From: an uncultured Bacteroidota bacterium
GTDB lineage: Bacteria > Bacteroidota > Bacteroidia > AKYH767-A > JABDAW01
DNA: 42,821 nucleotides
Reading direction: 5' to 3'
Assembly (NCBI GenBank): GCA_903844645.1
Contig: CAIMUP010000133.1
Location: forward strand, 1 to 42,821
The notes under the pieces were generated by a model, which was not told where the DNA came from, ran no database searches, and saw only the letters and a list, made by a program, of their open reading frames with translations. Position 1 is the first letter of the stretch. Every line of letters starts with the position of its first letter. Position numbers and translations under genes: made by a program. Shown here piece after piece: positions 1-35,700 of the stretch.

Positions 1-120
1 CCATTTGGGTAAATGGTATGTCCATTTGGGTAAATGGTATGTCCTTTTGGGTAAATGGTATGTCCTTTTGGGTAAATGGTATGTCCTTTTGGGTAAGTGG
101 TATGTCCTTTTGGGTAAAAC
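1..120. repeat. 21-bp tandem array A1 (truncated at window edge)
   Basis: Five full 21-bp units and a 15-nt partial unit, running off the left edge of the window. The first two units carry the dyad CCATTTGGGTAAATGG (6-bp arms, GGGT loop). The later units read CCTTTTGGGTAAATGG, so one arm is decayed. The period is a multiple of three, so an open frame runs through it by chance. The rest of the gene-free stretch to 337 holds a CACTCC/TATATA motif and a promoter; nothing else is visible there. Confidence 0.95.
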
Positions 121-161
121 AACCTTTTTTAAGGGTATTTCAATATAAAAGTTCATCTTTT

Positions 162-4759: not shown

Positions 4760-4830
4760 ACAGCGATTCTCCTATTCTCTACAGCGATTCTCCCATATTC
4801 TATAGCGATTCTCCTATTCTCTACAGCGAG
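4760..4830. repeat. 21-bp tandem array A2
   Basis: Three 21-bp units plus 8 nt of a fourth, each beginning ACAGCGATTCTCC (or the variant ATAGCGATTCTCC). It lies in the 303-nt divergent gap between the 4352-4642 and 4946-5434 genes, with a dispersed palindrome immediately to its right. Unlike most arrays here, no clear dyad is visible within the unit. The bases between 4656 and 4759 show no recognisable feature. Confidence 0.85.
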
Positions 4831-6541: not shown

Positions 6542-7444
6542 TTAATAACCTACTATTATTTTCTTAATAAAATGTTCGCTGACGCCCGTCAATTCAACGA
6601 AATAGACACCTGCGGATAGGGCGTTTACGGGGATGGTTTTACTGCTTTTTCCTTTACTGATCGGGGGGATAGTTTCTTTCCATTTTGGTTGCCCTAAAAG
6701 GTCATAAATGGTTATTTGGGGGTTATTAAGTTCTTCCCCGAGGTTGGCATTCATGATTAAATTAGTACCATCGTATTGAAAATTGAGGGCATCATTCGAT
6801 GAAAAATTCAGCCCACTTACCTCGGTTGGGAGGGTATAATAAACCTTTATCCCGATCCAATCTATCAAAGCATTGGTTGGGTTGGCGTTCGTATTCATCA
6901 CCCTTAATTCCATCCCAAAACTGGAATCATTAACCATTGCCGGCGTCTAGGCGTAGCCCCATAAATCGGTGCTTCCGCCATAAATATACAGCGAATCGTT
7001 GCCCGTCCACAGCCCGGCGAGGGGGTTGTTATTCCCTAAAGGAACACCACTAAATGTTAATTGGATGATGGTGTCTTGGATGGCATTGGCTACCAATCCA
7101 TATTTTTCCATCTGCACTTCAATGCCCGTGAGCGTAGCGGTTAGCGGTATCGAGAAATGATATTTCGTTGCGGTCATTACTCGTGAAAAATAGCAGGTGC
7201 TTTGGAAGCAATAACCATGTTGCATAAGGTCGGTTTCGGCAAATTGATGATCGTTCGATTCGGCATTTGCCCAACTCGTCCAATCTTCTCCTGGGCAGCC
7301 GAGGCAGGCAAAAGCAGGTTCGGATACGAGTGAAGGATTCAGCGGTCCTTGCGATTGCGCAAAGGTCGTTCGGGTATTCATTAATAAAAGAGCCAAAACG
7401 AGTAGGAAGGCGGCACGATTTTTCTTTGTAATAATTGTTTTCAT
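6542..7444 (-). pseudogene. T9SS-sorted protein, paralogue 2, interrupted by an amber codon
   Basis: The reading frame continues unshifted from the ATG at 7444 to the stop at 6542 (300 sense codons) except for one TAG at 6947-6949. Paralogue 1 has Trp there: GGSTDLWGYNWTPAM in the intact copy, GGSTDLWGYA-stop-TPAM here. A single TGG-to-TAG change explains it. The N-terminal piece keeps the signal peptide (ending TFAQ) and the conserved CLGCPGEDW and CYFSRVMTATKYHFSIPLTATLTGIEV motifs. The C-terminal piece keeps the complete T9SS domain, ending LSAGVYFVELTG and KKIIVGY. Without readthrough, the exported fragment would lack its sorting signal. A sequencing error is possible; the otherwise intact frame implies a recent lesion. 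Confidence 0.85.
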
Positions 7445-7469
7445 AAGAACTAATTTTTGGTTAGGAGGG

Positions 7470-7477
7470 CAAATATA
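7470..7477 (-). promoter_or_regulatory. -7 box of the interrupted T9SS gene
   Basis: The reverse strand reads TATATTTG (TAnnTTTG) about 25 nt before the ATG at 7444. No convincing -33 TTG was identified. Confidence 0.45.
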
Positions 7478-7577
7478 TATAATTTTATGACCATTAAAAC
7501 ACCCCAATCGAGGCATCATTTTTTTAATATTATTCCATGCCGCGAGGAATTTAAAGGAATGAGAAATTTCTCAAATG

Positions 7578-7787
7578 GATAATACACGTGTATTATCCCC
7601 CTTAGCATTTGCTCAACCCAATAATACACGTGTATTATACCTCTTAGCATTTGCTCAACCCGATAATACACGTGTATTATTCACTTTAGCATTTGCTCAA
7701 ACCGATAATACACGTGTATTATTCACTTCAGCAAACGCCAAGTGGGATAATACACGTGTATTATCGGTTTGAGCAAATGCCAAGAGG
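7578..7787. repeat. 42-bp (2 x 21) palindrome array A3
   Basis: Five units at an exact 42-nt spacing. Each contains the perfect 18-bp palindrome ATAATACACGTGTATTAT at 7579-7596, 7621-7638, 7663-7680, 7705-7722 and 7747-7764. The spacers of units 1-3 contain TTAGCATTTGCTCAA. The unit 5 spacer is the reverse complement of that type (TTTGAGCAAATGCCAAGAGG), and unit 4 is a hybrid. The array lies in a 457-nt divergent gap between the interrupted T9SS gene and the DUF1905 gene. Left of it, 7478-7577 shows only a short GAGAAATTTCTC palindrome. Confidence 0.95.
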
Positions 7788-7834
7788 TAAGATGCACTTA
7801 TCGAAGGCATTTTCGGATTCCATTCCCGTTGAAA

Positions 7835-7850
7835 CACTCCTATTATATAG
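7835..7850. other. CACTCCTATATATA-like motif near A3
   Basis: CACTCCTATTATATAG, followed by GCAGCTTTTT, sits 48 nt after array A3 and directly before the -33 box of the promoter at 7858-7887. Confidence 0.5.
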
Positions 7851-7857
7851 GCAGCTT

Positions 7858-7887
7858 TTTGGAATATCTGGATTATCGGTAGTTTTG
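7858..7887 (+). promoter_or_regulatory. promoter of the DUF1905 gene
   Basis: A -33 TTTG (7858-7861) and a -7 TAGTTTTG (7880-7887) are separated by 18 nt; the leader is about 7-14 nt before the ATG at 7902. Confidence 0.65.
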
Positions 7888-7901: not shown

Positions 7902-8411
7902 ATGATTCAATTCAAAACAACCATCCTCAAATTCGGGGAACAAGGCGAGAAAACGGGCTGGACTTATATCGAAATCCCTGCCGATGTCGCCAAAGAAATT
8001 AAACCCGGCAATAAGAAATCGTTCCGCGTGAAAGGGAAGTTAGATACTTGGGAATTCAGCGGCATCGCCATCATCCCTATGGGAAATGGAGCTTTTATTA
8101 TGGCATTAAAAAAGGAGATTCGCAAAGCAATCGGGAAGAAACACGGAGCCATAATCACCGTAGAAATTGAAGAAGATACCAGCCCCATGCTCCTCGATGA
8201 CGACCTTTTGGAATGCCTTGCCGATGAACCCAAAGCCCTCGAATTCTTTAAAACCCTGCCAAAAGGGCATCAACGATATTTCTCAGTCTGGATACAAAGT
8301 GCCAAAACAATTCCCACCAAAACAAAGCGAATTGCACAAACCATCAACGCTCTGAATCGTAAGCAACACTATGGAGAAATGGTTCGCTGGCAGAAGGAAA
8401 ACAAAGGCTGA
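7902..8411 (+). CDS. DUF1905 / YdeI-OmdA family protein
   Basis: 169 aa, cytoplasmic. The N-terminal half (about 1-90) matches the DUF1905 beta-barrel pattern: GWTYIEIPADVAKEI, FRVKGKLDTWEFSGIAIIPMGNGAFIMALKKEIRKAIGKKHG. The C-terminal half (about 100-169) matches the bacteriocin-protection YdeI/OmpD-associated helical module: LADEPKALEFFKTLPKGHQRYFSVWIQSAKTIPTKTKRI and the RKQHYGEM end. The two-domain arrangement is common in Bacteroidota. The biochemical role is not established. The gene is transcribed alone from the promoter at 7858-7887, and an imperfect hairpin overlaps its stop codon. Confidence 0.85.
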   Translation: MIQFKTTILKFGEQGEKTGWTYIEIPADVAKEIKPGNKKSFRVKGKLDTWEFSGIAIIPMGNGAFIMALKKEIRKAIGKKHGAIITVEIEEDTSPMLLDDDLLECLADEPKALEFFKTLPKGHQRYFSVWIQSAKTIPTKTKRIAQTINALNRKQHYGEMVRWQKENKG

Positions 8412-11344: not shown

Positions 11345-11554
11345 TCTGCAGATATTATACAAAGGTCTGTAGATAATATACAAAGGTCTGCACATATTGT
11401 AACAATGTCTTCACATATTGTTACAATGTCTGTACATATTGTAACAATGTCTTCACATACTGTTACAATGTCTGTACATATTGTAACAATGTCTTCACAT
11501 ATTGTTACAAAGTCTGTACATATTGTAACAATCTCTTCACGTATTGTTACAATA
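11345..11554. repeat. 21-bp tandem array A4 with 42-bp alternation
   Basis: Ten 21-bp units. Units 1-2 are divergent (ending TATACAAAGG). Units 3-10 alternate strictly between one type with ACATATTGTAACAATG and one with ACATATTGTTACAATG. The cores TTGTAACAA and TTGTTACAA are each other's reverse complement. The array stands in the 441-nt gap between the MBL gene (5' side) and the Asp-box protein gene (3' side). Outside the array and its bracketing inverted repeat nothing else was seen in the gap. Confidence 0.95.
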
Positions 11555-17737: not shown

Positions 17738-17798
17738 GAGATTTCATTAATAATAGAATTTCCGACCCTCCAAAATAGGTTTGAAGTAGAAAATGAAA

Positions 17799-18029
17799 AC
17801 TCCTTTCTGATAGAAAGTAACTCCTTTCTATCAGAAAGTAACTCCTTTCTATCAGAAAGTAACTCCTTTCTATCAGAAAGTAACTCCTTTCTATCAGAAC
17901 GTAACTCCTTTCTATCAGAACGTAATTCCTTTCTATCAGAACGTAACTCCTTTCTATCAGAACGTAACTCCTTTCTATCAGAAAGTAACTCCTTTCTATC
18001 AGAAAGTAACTCCTTTCTATCAGAAAGTA
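17799..18029. repeat. 21-bp tandem array A5
   Basis: Eleven exact 21-bp units with the dyad CTTTCTATCAGAAAG (6-bp arms, ATC loop). Units 5-8 have AGAACG instead of AGAAAG, a block that spread locally. Unit 1 has the loop inverted (CTTTCTGATAGAAAG). It lies in a 558-nt gap between two minus-strand genes. The rest of the gap holds a hairpin on either side and a CACTCC/TATATA motif at 18075-18091. Confidence 0.96.
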
Positions 18030-18074
18030 AGCCCTCTTTGAGCCTCGAAACTTGGTTTTCAAGTATAAAACCAG

Positions 18075-20968: not shown

Positions 20969-21220
20969 ACTAAGCTGCCCTTCTCAAGGTATTCACTGCC
21001 CTTCTTTAAGATTACACTGCCCTTCTCTAAGATTACACTAACCTTCTCTAAGATTACACTAACCTTCTCTAAGATTACACTAATCTTCTCTAAGATTACA
21101 CTAATCTTCTTTAAGATTCCATCAATCTTCGATAAGCTCACATCAATCTTCGATAAGCTCACATCAATCTTCGATAAGCTCACATTAATCTTCGATAAGA
21201 TTACACTAATCTTATCGAAG
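20969..21220. repeat. 21-bp tandem array A6
   Basis: Twelve 21-bp units. The sequence changes gradually along the array, from CTGCCCTTC through CTAACCTTC to CTAATCTTC and CATCAATCTTCGATAAG. Units such as TAATCTTCTCTAAGATTA form 7-bp-arm dyads. The last unit has the core inverted: CTTATCGAAG instead of CTTCGATAAG. It therefore pairs with its neighbour as a perfect 16-bp stem (21187-21202 with 21208-21223, 5-nt loop). It lies in a 612-nt gap between two minus-strand genes; hairpins flank it on both sides (20927-20960, 21261-21299). Confidence 0.95.
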
Positions 21221-21260
21221 ATTACATCAAACATGTCTCCGACCAAAATTTTTGCCTCCT

Positions 21261-24656: not shown

Positions 24657-25001
24657 AAAAGCCATCCTTTTCCGTTTGGTGGCCATCCTTTGCCATTTGG
24701 TCGCCATCCTTTTCTGTTTGGTCGCCATCCTTTGCCTTATGGTCGCCATCCTTTTGGGTTTGGTGGCCATCCTTTGCCATTTGGTCGCCATCCTTTCCTA
24801 TTTGGTGGCCATCCTTTGCCATTGGTGGTCATCCTTTGCCATTTGGTCGCCATCCTTTGCCATTTGGTCGCCATCCTTTTGGGTTTGGTGGCCATCCTTT
24901 GCCATTTGGTCGCCATCCTTTTGGGTTTGGTGGCCATCCTTTGCCATTTGGTCGCCATCCTTTCCTGTTTGGTGGTCATCATTTGGCAAAGGATGGCTTT
25001 T
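24657..25001. repeat. 21-bp tandem array A7 with 42-bp alternation and inverted end
   Basis: Fifteen units beginning GCCATCCTTT, plus an end piece. Two types alternate (TTGCCATTTGGTC and TTTGGGTTTGGTG classes), giving a 42-bp higher-order period. Unit 8 is 20 bp, which breaks any reading frame. The left end AAAAGCCATCCTTT (24657-24670) is matched by its exact reverse complement AAAGGATGGCTTTT at the right end (24988-25001). It lies in a 1036-nt divergent gap between the STAS and GH3 genes. Confidence 0.95.
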
Positions 25002-25198: not shown

Positions 25199-25209
25199 TT
25201 GGTTTTATA

Positions 25210-25263
25210 TCATCATCGTTTTATGATACCGACCCCTTGGGAGGTACCATAAAACGATGATGA
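25210..25263. repeat. dispersed palindrome, copy 4 (type II)
   Basis: 54 nt; perfect 16-bp outer arms TCATCATCGTTTTATG / CATAAAACGATGATGA, inner arms ATACC/GGTAC, core GACCCCTTGGGAGG shared with copy 3 at 4840-4890. The outer arms (TCATCGTTTT) are also shared with the type I copies at 901 and 4291. Confidence 0.88.
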
Positions 25264-25274
25264 AGATTATTATT

Positions 25275-28364: not shown

Positions 28365-28595
28365 AGAAGGAATTACATCATCCCCAAAAGGAATTACATC
28401 ATCCCCAAAAGGAATCACATTATCCCCAAAAGGAATTACATCATCCCCAAAAGGAATTACATCATCCCCAAAAGGAGATACATCATCCTCAAAAGGAAAA
28501 CTTTTTTCATCAAAAGGAAAACTTTTTTCATCAAAAGGAAAACTTTTTTCATCAAAAGGAAAACTTTTTTCATCAAAAGGAAAACTTTTTTCGTC
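28365..28595. repeat. 21-bp tandem array A8 with two unit subfamilies
   Basis: Eleven exact 21-bp units all starting (A)AAAGGA. Units 1-6 (28365-28490) continue with ATTACATCATCCCC. Units 7-11 (28491-28595) continue with AAACTTTTTTCATC and contain the dyad AAAAGGAAAACTTTT. Unit 6 is a hybrid. A partial unit follows to about 28610. It lies in the 534-nt gap before the GT117 gene; the remaining bases up to the promoter at 28782 show no feature. Confidence 0.96.
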
Positions 28596-28781
28596 AAAAG
28601 GAGATTTATAAATGCCTCTGTAAGTGTAATGATCAAATCATAACATTCTATAATTCAGCCATTTAAACACACCCTCTCTTTAAATTCAGAATGCACTGCC
28701 TTTTTTGAAGCAATCAACCCCCCAATCCTTAAACATTCCTTAAATTTTATGCCTATTTACACATCTGATACCTAAATCCGT

Positions 28782-32754: not shown

Positions 32755-35700
32755 TTACATATTCCTCCGATACTGCCCGCCCACTTCAAATAAGGCAGTC
32801 GTCATCTCGCCAAGAGAGCAATATTTGGAGGCTTCCATAAGAGAATTAAAGATGTTTTTATTGGCAATGGCAGTTGTTTGAAGATTGCGAAGAAGTGCAT
32901 GCGTTTTATCGGCATAATGCTTGTGTAATTCTTTGAGCATTTCAATTTGATATTGCTTTTCTTCTTCTGTTGCACGGATGACTTCCTTAGGAAGAATCGT
33001 GGGAGAACCTTTGGAAGAGAGGAAGGTATTTACCCCGATAATAGGGTACTCTCCTGTATGTTTGAGGGTCTCATAATAGAGCGATTCTTCTTGAATAAGT
33101 CCGCGCTGATACATAGTTTCCATGGCACCAAGAACGCCGCCCCGCTCGGTTATTCTATCGAACTCTGTAAGCACGGCTTCTTCGACTAAATCGGTGAGTT
33201 CTTCAATGATAAAAGAGCCTTGCAGAGGGTTTTCATTCTTTGCCAAACCAAGCTCGCGGTTAATAATTAATTGGATAGCCATTGCACGACGAACACTCTC
33301 CTCTGTTGGCGTGGTAATGGCTTCATCATAAGCATTGGTATGAAGAGAATTGCAGTTATCATAGATGGCATAAAGGGCTTGCAATGTAGTGCGAATATCA
33401 TTGAAGTCAATCTCCTGTGCATGCAACGAACGTCCCGAAGTTTGAATGTGATATTTAAGCATTTGAGAACGTTCGTCAGCATTGTATTTTAGCTTCATTG
33501 CCTTTGCCCATATTCTTCTTGCAACACGACCAATTACCGCGTATTCAGGGTCAATTCCATTCGAAAAGAAGAAGGAAAGATTAGGTGCAAACTGGTTAAT
33601 ATCCATGCCTCGAGAAACATAATATTCAACGTAAGTAAAACCATTGGAAAGCGTAAGAGCTAATTGTGTAATTGGATTAGCACCAGCCTCCGAAATATGA
33701 TAACCGGAGATGGAAACGGAATAGAAATTCCTTATCTTATTCTGTATAAAATACTCCTGCACATCACCCATTAAACGCAGCGCAAATTCAGTTGAAAAAA
33801 TGCATGTATTCTGTGCCTGATCTTCCTTTAAAATATCTGCCTGGACAGTTCCACGAACGATTGCAATTGTATCCTTTTTTATCTTCTCATAAACATCAAT
33901 TGGAAGAACCTGATCACCTGTAACTCCCAGCAATAGCAAGCCTAATCCATCATTGCCTTCAGGAATGGGACCTTGATACGAAGGACGTTTAGCACCTGAT
34001 TTCTTATAGAGATCATCAATCTTTTTATTGACTTCATCTACGAGATTATTTTCTTTAATATAAATCTCACATTGCTGATCAATAGCGGCATTCATAAAGA
34101 AACCGGTAAGCATTGCAGCAGGACCATTAATTGTCATACTAACCGATGTTGAAGCATTGGCAAGATTGAATCCGGAGTATAGCTTCTTGGCATCATCCAA
34201 ACAACAAATTGATACACCTGCATTACCTATTTTACCATAGATATCAGGACGTAAATCAGGATCGTGTCCATAAAGTGTTACAGAGTCAAAAGCAGTAGAT
34301 AAACGCTTTGCTGGAAGCCCGCGAGATACATAATGAAAGCGCCTGTTAGTACGCTCCGGACCACCTTCTCCTGCAAACATTCTGGTCGGATCTTCACCTT
34401 CTCTCTTGAATGGGAAAACGCCCGCAGTATAAGGGAATTCGCCAGGGACATTCTCCTCAAGATTCCATTTTAACAAGTCTCCCCACGCTTCATATTTAGG
34501 AAGAGAAATCTTTGGAATCTGTGAATGAGAAAGCGATTCGTAATGCGTCACAATCTTAATATCACGACCACGAACTTTATAGGTATAAAACTTATCTTTA
34601 TAAGATTGAAACTTATCTCTCCATGTCTCGATTATCCTTTTGTTACGCCCATCTAATGACAATTCCAATTCTGAATAAGTTTCTTCAAGACCCTTAATTA
34701 AACGATCTTTATCTTCTAACTTAGAATGTTTTAAAGTATCAATTGACTTGCGGATAGCATAGAGTTGTTGGGCAACTTCTGCCTGCTCATTCACCCAGGA
34801 ATCATACTTACGATTGTTCTCTGAAATCTCAGATAGATATCGTGTACGATGAGGAGGAATAATGTAAATCTTTTCAGACATTTCATCGGTAATATGGAAG
34901 TCTGACTTCAAATCAGCACCAGCTTTCTCCACTAATTTATCCATGATTGCTTTGTAGAGTTTATTCATTCCCGGATCATTAAATTGAGAAGCTATGGTGC
35001 CATATACTGGAATCTTTTCATCTGGCATTTCAAACAATTGATGATTGCGTTTATACTGTTTCTTCACATCACGAATTGCATCCAAAGCACCACGTTTATC
35101 GAATTTATTAAGAGCAATAATATCAGCAAAATCGAGCATGTCAATCTTCTCTAACTGTGTAGCTGCGCCATATTCGGGAGTCATCACATACAATGAAACA
35201 TCTGAATGTTCAATGATTTCAGTATCTGATTGACCAATGCCGGAAGTCTCCAGAATAATCAAATCATAACCCGCCGCTTTCACAATGTCAACAGCATCCT
35301 TCACATACTTTGACAATGCTAAATTAGATTGGCGAGTAGCAAGAGAACGCATATAAACCCTTGGATTATTAATAGAGTTCATGCGAATTCTATCACCCAA
35401 TAATGCCCCGCCAGTTTTGCGTTTGGAAGGATCAACAGAGATGATGGCAATGGTTTTATCTTTGAAATCAACCAAGAATCTACGCACTAATTCATCAACT
35501 AAAGAAGATTTACCAGAGCCACCAGTGCCAGTAATACCAAGCACTTTGGAAGCTTTAATATTTACTTTTAACTTTAATGTTTCAAACTCCTTATGATTAT
35601 TTTCAGCGCATGAAATCAATCGGGCTATAGCATGAGAATCTCTTTTGGTAATCTCATCTACCTCTCCATTCATGTTAAATCCAGTAGGGAAATCACACTT

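Follow-up and report, generated by a model that had tools for sequence, protein, structure and literature searches.

A palindrome array in an uncultured Bacteroidota bacterium belongs to a genus-restricted class of intergenic tandem repeats with 21-bp steps

The array at 7562-7788 and its surroundings

The window analysed here, a stretch of 42,821 nucleotides from an uncultured Bacteroidota bacterium (GTDB lineage Bacteroidia; AKYH767-A; JABDAW01; contig CAIMUP010000133.1 of assembly GCA_903844645.1, positions 1 to 42,821 of the forward strand), carries between two divergent genes an array built of perfect palindromes (Table 1). The 18-bp palindrome ATAATACACGTGTATTAT is present in five exact copies at 42-bp steps over positions 7579-7764, as a sequence-only reading of the window had described, and the regular, helically phased layout of dyads that it pointed out is real. 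Weak dyads of the AGCATTTGCT type, with variants, are centred at 7608.5, 7650.5, 7692.5, 7734.5 and 7776.5, midway between the palindrome centres; ten dyad centres thus follow one another at exactly 21 bp, and the basic step is 21 bp, not 42 bp. No further copy of ATAATACACGTGTATTAT with up to three mismatches is present elsewhere in the window (0.01 expected by chance). The search through the genome that the same reading had proposed finds no exact copy outside the array in the 3.84-Mb, 143-contig assembly, and pairs of ACACGTGT at the array spacing of 42 bp at nine separate loci.

That reading had also held that the palindrome is conserved while the spacers vary. The first part stands, in that no palindrome column varies, but the variation of the spacers is mostly one of orientation, S4 and S5 being inverted. 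Spacer S5 is identical to the reverse complement of S2 at 22 of 24 positions, and S4 to that of S1 at 17 of 24; in an alignment of S1, S2, S3 and reversed S5, variation touches 7 of the 24 spacer columns and 0 of the 18 palindrome columns (hypergeometric P = 0.013). Once orientation is corrected, the invariance of the palindrome is thus weak evidence for conservation confined to it. Dyad symmetry may be under some selection.

The divergent promoter setting was likewise borne out, as far as consensus matches predict it: outward-facing -7 boxes of the Bacteroidota type (TAnnTTTG) lie on both sides of the array, at 7880-7887 on the + strand and at 7477-7470 on the - strand. Between the array and the predicted + promoter lies the motif GCTGCCTATATAATAGGAGTG, an occurrence of the recurrent flank motif GCTGCCTATATATAAGGAGTG. 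It has 13 matches in 977 kb of this genome, most of them oriented alike and no more than 80 bp from an array; genome-wide, with up to two mismatches, there are 20 matches on the + and 29 on the - strand, and none to a reversed control. The - strand gene, for a secreted protein sorted by the type IX secretion system (T9SS), has one in-frame TAG at 6947-6949 in an otherwise intact frame, which may be a nonsense mutation, an assembly error or the mark of a pseudogene.

Table 1. Coordinates of features in the window and of repeated elements at other loci (L, our locus labels); TRF, Tandem Repeats Finder
Feature	Position	Strand	Basis or remark
Whole array	7562..7788	.	21-bp step, 42-bp higher-order unit; TRF period 42, 4.8 copies; direct and inverted repeat families
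Palindrome P1 ATAATACACGTGTATTAT	7579..7596	.	Exact match
Palindrome P2 ATAATACACGTGTATTAT	7621..7638	.	Exact match
Palindrome P3 ATAATACACGTGTATTAT	7663..7680	.	Exact match
Palindrome P4 ATAATACACGTGTATTAT, head-to-head junction where spacer orientation flips	7705..7722	.	Exact match; spacer comparison
Palindrome P5 ATAATACACGTGTATTAT	7747..7764	.	Exact match
Spacers S1-S3 (including P2, P3), forward	7597..7704	+	Each with a AGCATTTGCT dyad 21 bp from the flanking palindromes
Spacers S4, S5 (including P5), inverted relative to S1-S3	7723..7788	-	Spacer comparison
Flank motif GCTGCCTATATAATAGGAGTG	7835..7855	-	
Predicted Bacteroidota-type promoter of + gene (TTTTG, 18 nt, TAGTTTTG)	7857..7887	+	Consensus match only
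Predicted -7 box TATATTTG of - gene	7470..7477	-	Consensus match only
DUF1905 / OmdA (YdeI-like) protein gene	7902..8411	+	PF08922, PF13376
Secreted T9SS-sorted protein gene	6542..7446	-	PF18962 on C-terminal part; translation
Other array, 21-bp period	4..137	.	TRF
Other array, 21-bp period	4760..4829	.	TRF
Other array, period 21/42	11345..11553	.	TRF
Other array, period 21	17798..18030	.	TRF
Other array, period 21	20975..21226	.	TRF
Other array, period 21/42	24661..24985	.	TRF
Other array, period 21/42/63	28367..28602	.	TRF
Short array, period 21	34575..34618	.	TRF
CACCTGAAAATCGGGTTTTATAACGGGAAAAAG motif	L044:12408-12661, L044:17125-17281, L046:13811-14059, L049:19378-19640, L268, L278		
32-member dispersed cluster	L198:4078-4145, L208:4718-4805, window 25204-25272, others		
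G+C-rich element, ~220 bp	L199:15240-15485, L190:10235-10481, L185:14731-14974		

A class of 21-bp arrays in one genus

The array is one of nine that Tandem Repeats Finder detects in the window, with periods that are all multiples of 21 or derived from them. In the 977 kb of this genome (G000; about a quarter of it) that was read directly, using simple open reading frame calls as genes, the period is a multiple of 21 in 232 of 284 tandem arrays; the 185 of these that reach at least 80 bp amount to 18.9 per 100 kb and 3.7% of bases, which, if uniform over 3.84 Mb, extrapolates to about 725 arrays. Their unit sequences are mostly unrelated, with similarity near that of shuffled units, save for a few unit families that recur at several loci, and no palindrome consensus is shared across the genome of the kind that defines repetitive extragenic palindromes (REPs) and bacterial interspersed mosaic elements (BIMEs).

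The arrays are mainly located outside called genes, in gaps of every kind (tandem, divergent and convergent), and 59 of the 88 gaps longer than 300 bp contain one. They are non-coding: variation among copies shows no codon-position bias (0.477 observed, 0.478 expected; p<0.05 in 5.4% of arrays). Identity among copies by fifth of the array is 0.902, 0.931, 0.930, 0.920 and 0.880, so edge copies are more divergent than central ones; head-to-tail, non-coding and with divergent edges, the arrays are minisatellites, or intergenic tandem repeats. An origin of the unit from three heptamers was rejected, as there is no autocorrelation at lag 7 or 14.

About half of the sampled contigs have an array at their start, and 25 arrays begin within 60 bp of the start of a sampled stretch, mostly at contig ends. 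An assembly artefact is unlikely, because three separate assemblies show arrays, the copies are imperfect and many contigs start inside arrays; short reads may account for an upper limit of array length near 250 bp.

Among the genomes sampled, the class is largely restricted to the genus, in which all three sampled species carry it. Density per 100 kb is about 19 arrays in G000, 14-17 and 11-17 in the congeners G001 and G002, and 1.4 in the sister genus, which a single genome (G003) represents. The samples from other families of the order contain no array in five cases (G004, G005, G006, G009, G011) and one array in 36 kb in the sixth (G007); genomes outside the genus were sampled at 36-73 kb each, and absence refers to these samples and not to whole genomes. 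Pairs of ACACGTGT at 42 bp, searched for across the whole of 42 genomes of the order, occur in the three congeners only, and 80 named Bacteroidota loci yield few cases, mostly of two copies.

The abundance and variety of the arrays bear on the likeness to an iteron cluster that the sequence-only reading had seen. Iterons are spaced by two helical turns, and in this the array is iteron-like; there are, however, hundreds of arrays with varied, unrelated units across the assembly rather than a single cluster beside a rep gene or oriV, no replication initiator is among the Pfam matches of the flanking genes (T9SS and DUF1905 proteins), and a BLASTN search against plasmids and phages, with 72,556 plasmid records, gave no match. 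Plasmid-type iterons or an origin are thus about as improbable as any explanation we weighed could be. Three further candidates were set aside. Canonical parS also has a CACGTG core; the genome encodes one ParB and the flanks of the palindrome differ, no search for canonical parS sites having been made. CACGTG pairs occur at 16 loci in viral contigs, in other arrangements and mostly with different flanks. An Rfam scan returned sub-threshold microRNA hairpin matches only, as expected by chance for palindromic DNA.

Proposed remodelling of arrays and competing explanations

Inverted units are a recurrent feature of the class: a unit matching in inverse orientation at 16 or more of 21 positions lies in or near 61 of 295 arrays, about a fifth, typically near the array edge, against 3 for a complement and 4 for a reverse control. 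At L265, L272 and L274 the spacers between TACACGTGTA palindromes occur in both orientations, like a shuffled mosaic. A homologue of the window array, scoring 54 where permuted and other sampled arrays reach 28 at most, is found in G002; it adjoins a different gene there, presumably one resembling that of a pyruvate dehydrogenase beta subunit from its sequence as read by eye. In this homologue ACACGCGT is part of the ordinary units, and the perfect ACACGTGT is seen at the point of orientation reversal.

The window array thus belongs to a class of intergenic, non-coding minisatellites, restricted to the genus and built in 21-bp steps, or two helical turns; this membership is shown, as are the locked period, the mostly unrelated units, the sharing of some unit families between loci and the inverted units. 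With moderate confidence, we favour the view that such arrays grow by duplication in multiples of 21 bp and are remodelled when replication switches template by fold-back. Mutation of quasipalindromes by template switching is well established (PMC7202029). Fold-back inside a unit would place two half-units head to head and so create a perfect palindrome, and this junction palindrome may then have been amplified as a new unit. The model predicts perfect ACACGTGT at an orientation flip and ACACGCGT in ordinary units, and the homologous array in G002 fits. On this view the perfection of the palindromes would reflect their recent origin and homogenisation rather than recognition by a dedicated regulator. 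That a protein footprint or polymerase contact over two turns sets the 21-bp step is a guess. Reverse transcriptase was rejected as the writer of the arrays, there being none in G000 or G002.

Several points weigh against this interpretation. The fold-back and slippage steps are our inference. Array lengths and counts are approximate, coming from three fragmented genome assemblies. The shared motifs beside some arrays keep a fixed orientation, and reading several loci by eye places them between array and promoter, a hint of some connection with regulation. Finally, in one array common to G000 and G002, with a 42-bp unit in both and a spacer ACGACCG that is invariant in aligned copies, four of the eight palindrome pairs have changed on both sides between the species and the sequence has stayed palindromic (92.5% of cells are paired, and none of 500 shuffles is as high); selection on dyads would also give such two-sided changes.

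These double changes also speak for a selected and largely sequence-independent function, in which dyads every two turns would serve as DNA cruciforms, RNA hairpins or phased nucleoid-protein sites, their period and symmetry being maintained by selection while their letters drift. Dyads are also enriched in the units (longest arm 4.53, against 3.75 in shuffles; p<=0.05 in 20% of arrays), and the window array folded as RNA reaches -113.9 kcal/mol (z -15.6), although any run of palindromes would fold likewise. Most arrays nevertheless have no clear dyad, and A/T phasing at 10.5 bp, as expected of A-tract curvature, shows no excess over other harmonics; the covariation comes from one array whose copies are not independent, and an identical pattern would result from the known correction of quasipalindromes through template switching (PMC7202029). 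We judge such a function unlikely on present evidence, albeit the strongest of the competitors.

A cooperative operator array was the other likeness proposed from sequence; on this reading a dimeric regulator of both flanking genes would bind it. Such an array would suit perfect dyads that lie on the same helix face between two outward promoters, with the shared motif between array and promoter, and the occurrence of ACACGTGT pairs at 42 bp at the nine loci here and at loci in both congeners. An arbitrary palindrome, AACATGTT, is however just as frequent at this spacing (about ten loci in G000), so that ACACGTGT does not recur beyond other palindromes, and arrays of mostly unrelated units, at about 19 per 100 kb, occupy convergent gaps too. 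In G002 the ortholog of the + gene, 80% identical, is immediately preceded by another gene, with no array at that place. In G001 an array does lie upstream of the DUF1905 ortholog, and has only a 12-mer in common with that of the window, within the range of permuted controls. The nearest relative found is the G002 array beside a different gene. An operator at this site appears improbable, and a cluster of dyads should not be called an operator on its layout alone.

The flanks of the arrays raise a further explanation, that REP/BIME-like elements, or elements like miniature inverted-repeat transposable elements, are dispersed through the genome, arrays and flanking leaders being copied between loci as units. 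In its favour, 126 of 333 array flanks have a matching counterpart among the others, as a rule oriented alike, some of these being overlapping flanks of neighbouring arrays; L205 and L218 have both unit and right flank in common, and unit families recur at several loci. Against this, leaders are alike while units differ, no element ends or genome-wide consensus were found, and, as to REP-associated tyrosine transposases (RAYTs), Y1_Tnp has a single 80-residue match, in a 113-aa frame, in G000, with no expansion in the genus. Dispersal of this kind is, in our estimation, highly improbable as the source of the class.

Other repeated sequences were observed in these genomes. A second flank motif, CACCTGAAAATCGGGTTTTATAACGGGAAAAAG, stands in fixed orientation beside arrays of differing units and is also present in a congener. 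A dispersed cluster of 32 members mixes two hairpin-like modules, ATCATCGTTTTATTGTTGCTCCC...GGTCGCAATCATAAAACGATGA and AGGTTTTAA...CAAAACCT. Long inverted repeats mark a dispersed G+C-rich element (GGCGCGTCCCCTGCTGCC...CATCCCTCGCGC) of about 220 bp, which often adjoins arrays. In G001 the repeated element GCTATCCGCTGTAGCCGCTGC...GGGCTGCCGCTACTATCGGGGCTA adjoins arrays (L150:1-130, L145:1-120, L153).

Possible length measurement and comparison with known repeats

That hundreds of mostly unrelated sequences share an exact repeat length within a single genus, and do not in its sister genus as sampled, suggests a process that measures DNA length and does not read sequence. A bolder proposal, which we put forward tentatively and consider doubtful, is that a molecular machine specific to the genus gauges lengths of two helical turns and writes, or maintains, the hundreds of intergenic 21-bp arrays independently of their sequence, with dyad symmetry kept and sequence not; this would amount to satellite DNA in a bacterium, its step locked to the footprint of a protein. 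The arrays also offer a natural system for following the birth and homogenisation of bacterial tandem repeats and palindromes. A literature search, which largely excluded subscription papers and preprints, found no published description of such arrays.

The nearest described phenomenon is the tandem repeats of the archaeal Borgs, which are likewise many independent arrays of differing sequence, genome-specific and fast evolving, virtually absent from the host chromosome and with their mechanism open (PMC9879509). Borg units are perfect and of variable length, 14-38% of the intergenic ones being divisible by three, with about half of the repeats in genes (PMC9879509); the present arrays are locked to 21 bp, imperfect and intergenic, and lie on contigs assigned to a bacterial genome. 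Next in likeness are REPs and BIMEs, which are also extragenic palindromes forming mosaics of alternating orientation, but have a shared consensus that bears a GTAG or CGTC tag, and are associated with RAYT transposases (PMC2817692, PMC3733652), whereas the arrays described here lack any sequence in common and the genome yielded no intact Y1 transposase. The TAACTGA heptamer repeats of Beggiatoaceae, Cyanobacteria and some Bacteroidetes are similarly non-coding and intergenic, of fixed unit length and scattered taxonomy, and a link to polymerase contact length has been proposed for them (PMC4679880). They consist of one fixed 7-nt sequence, placed in a Beggiatoa genome mostly just upstream of start codons (PMC4679880), while the present arrays are free in sequence and fixed only in their 21-bp length, a combination that none of the three known systems joins.
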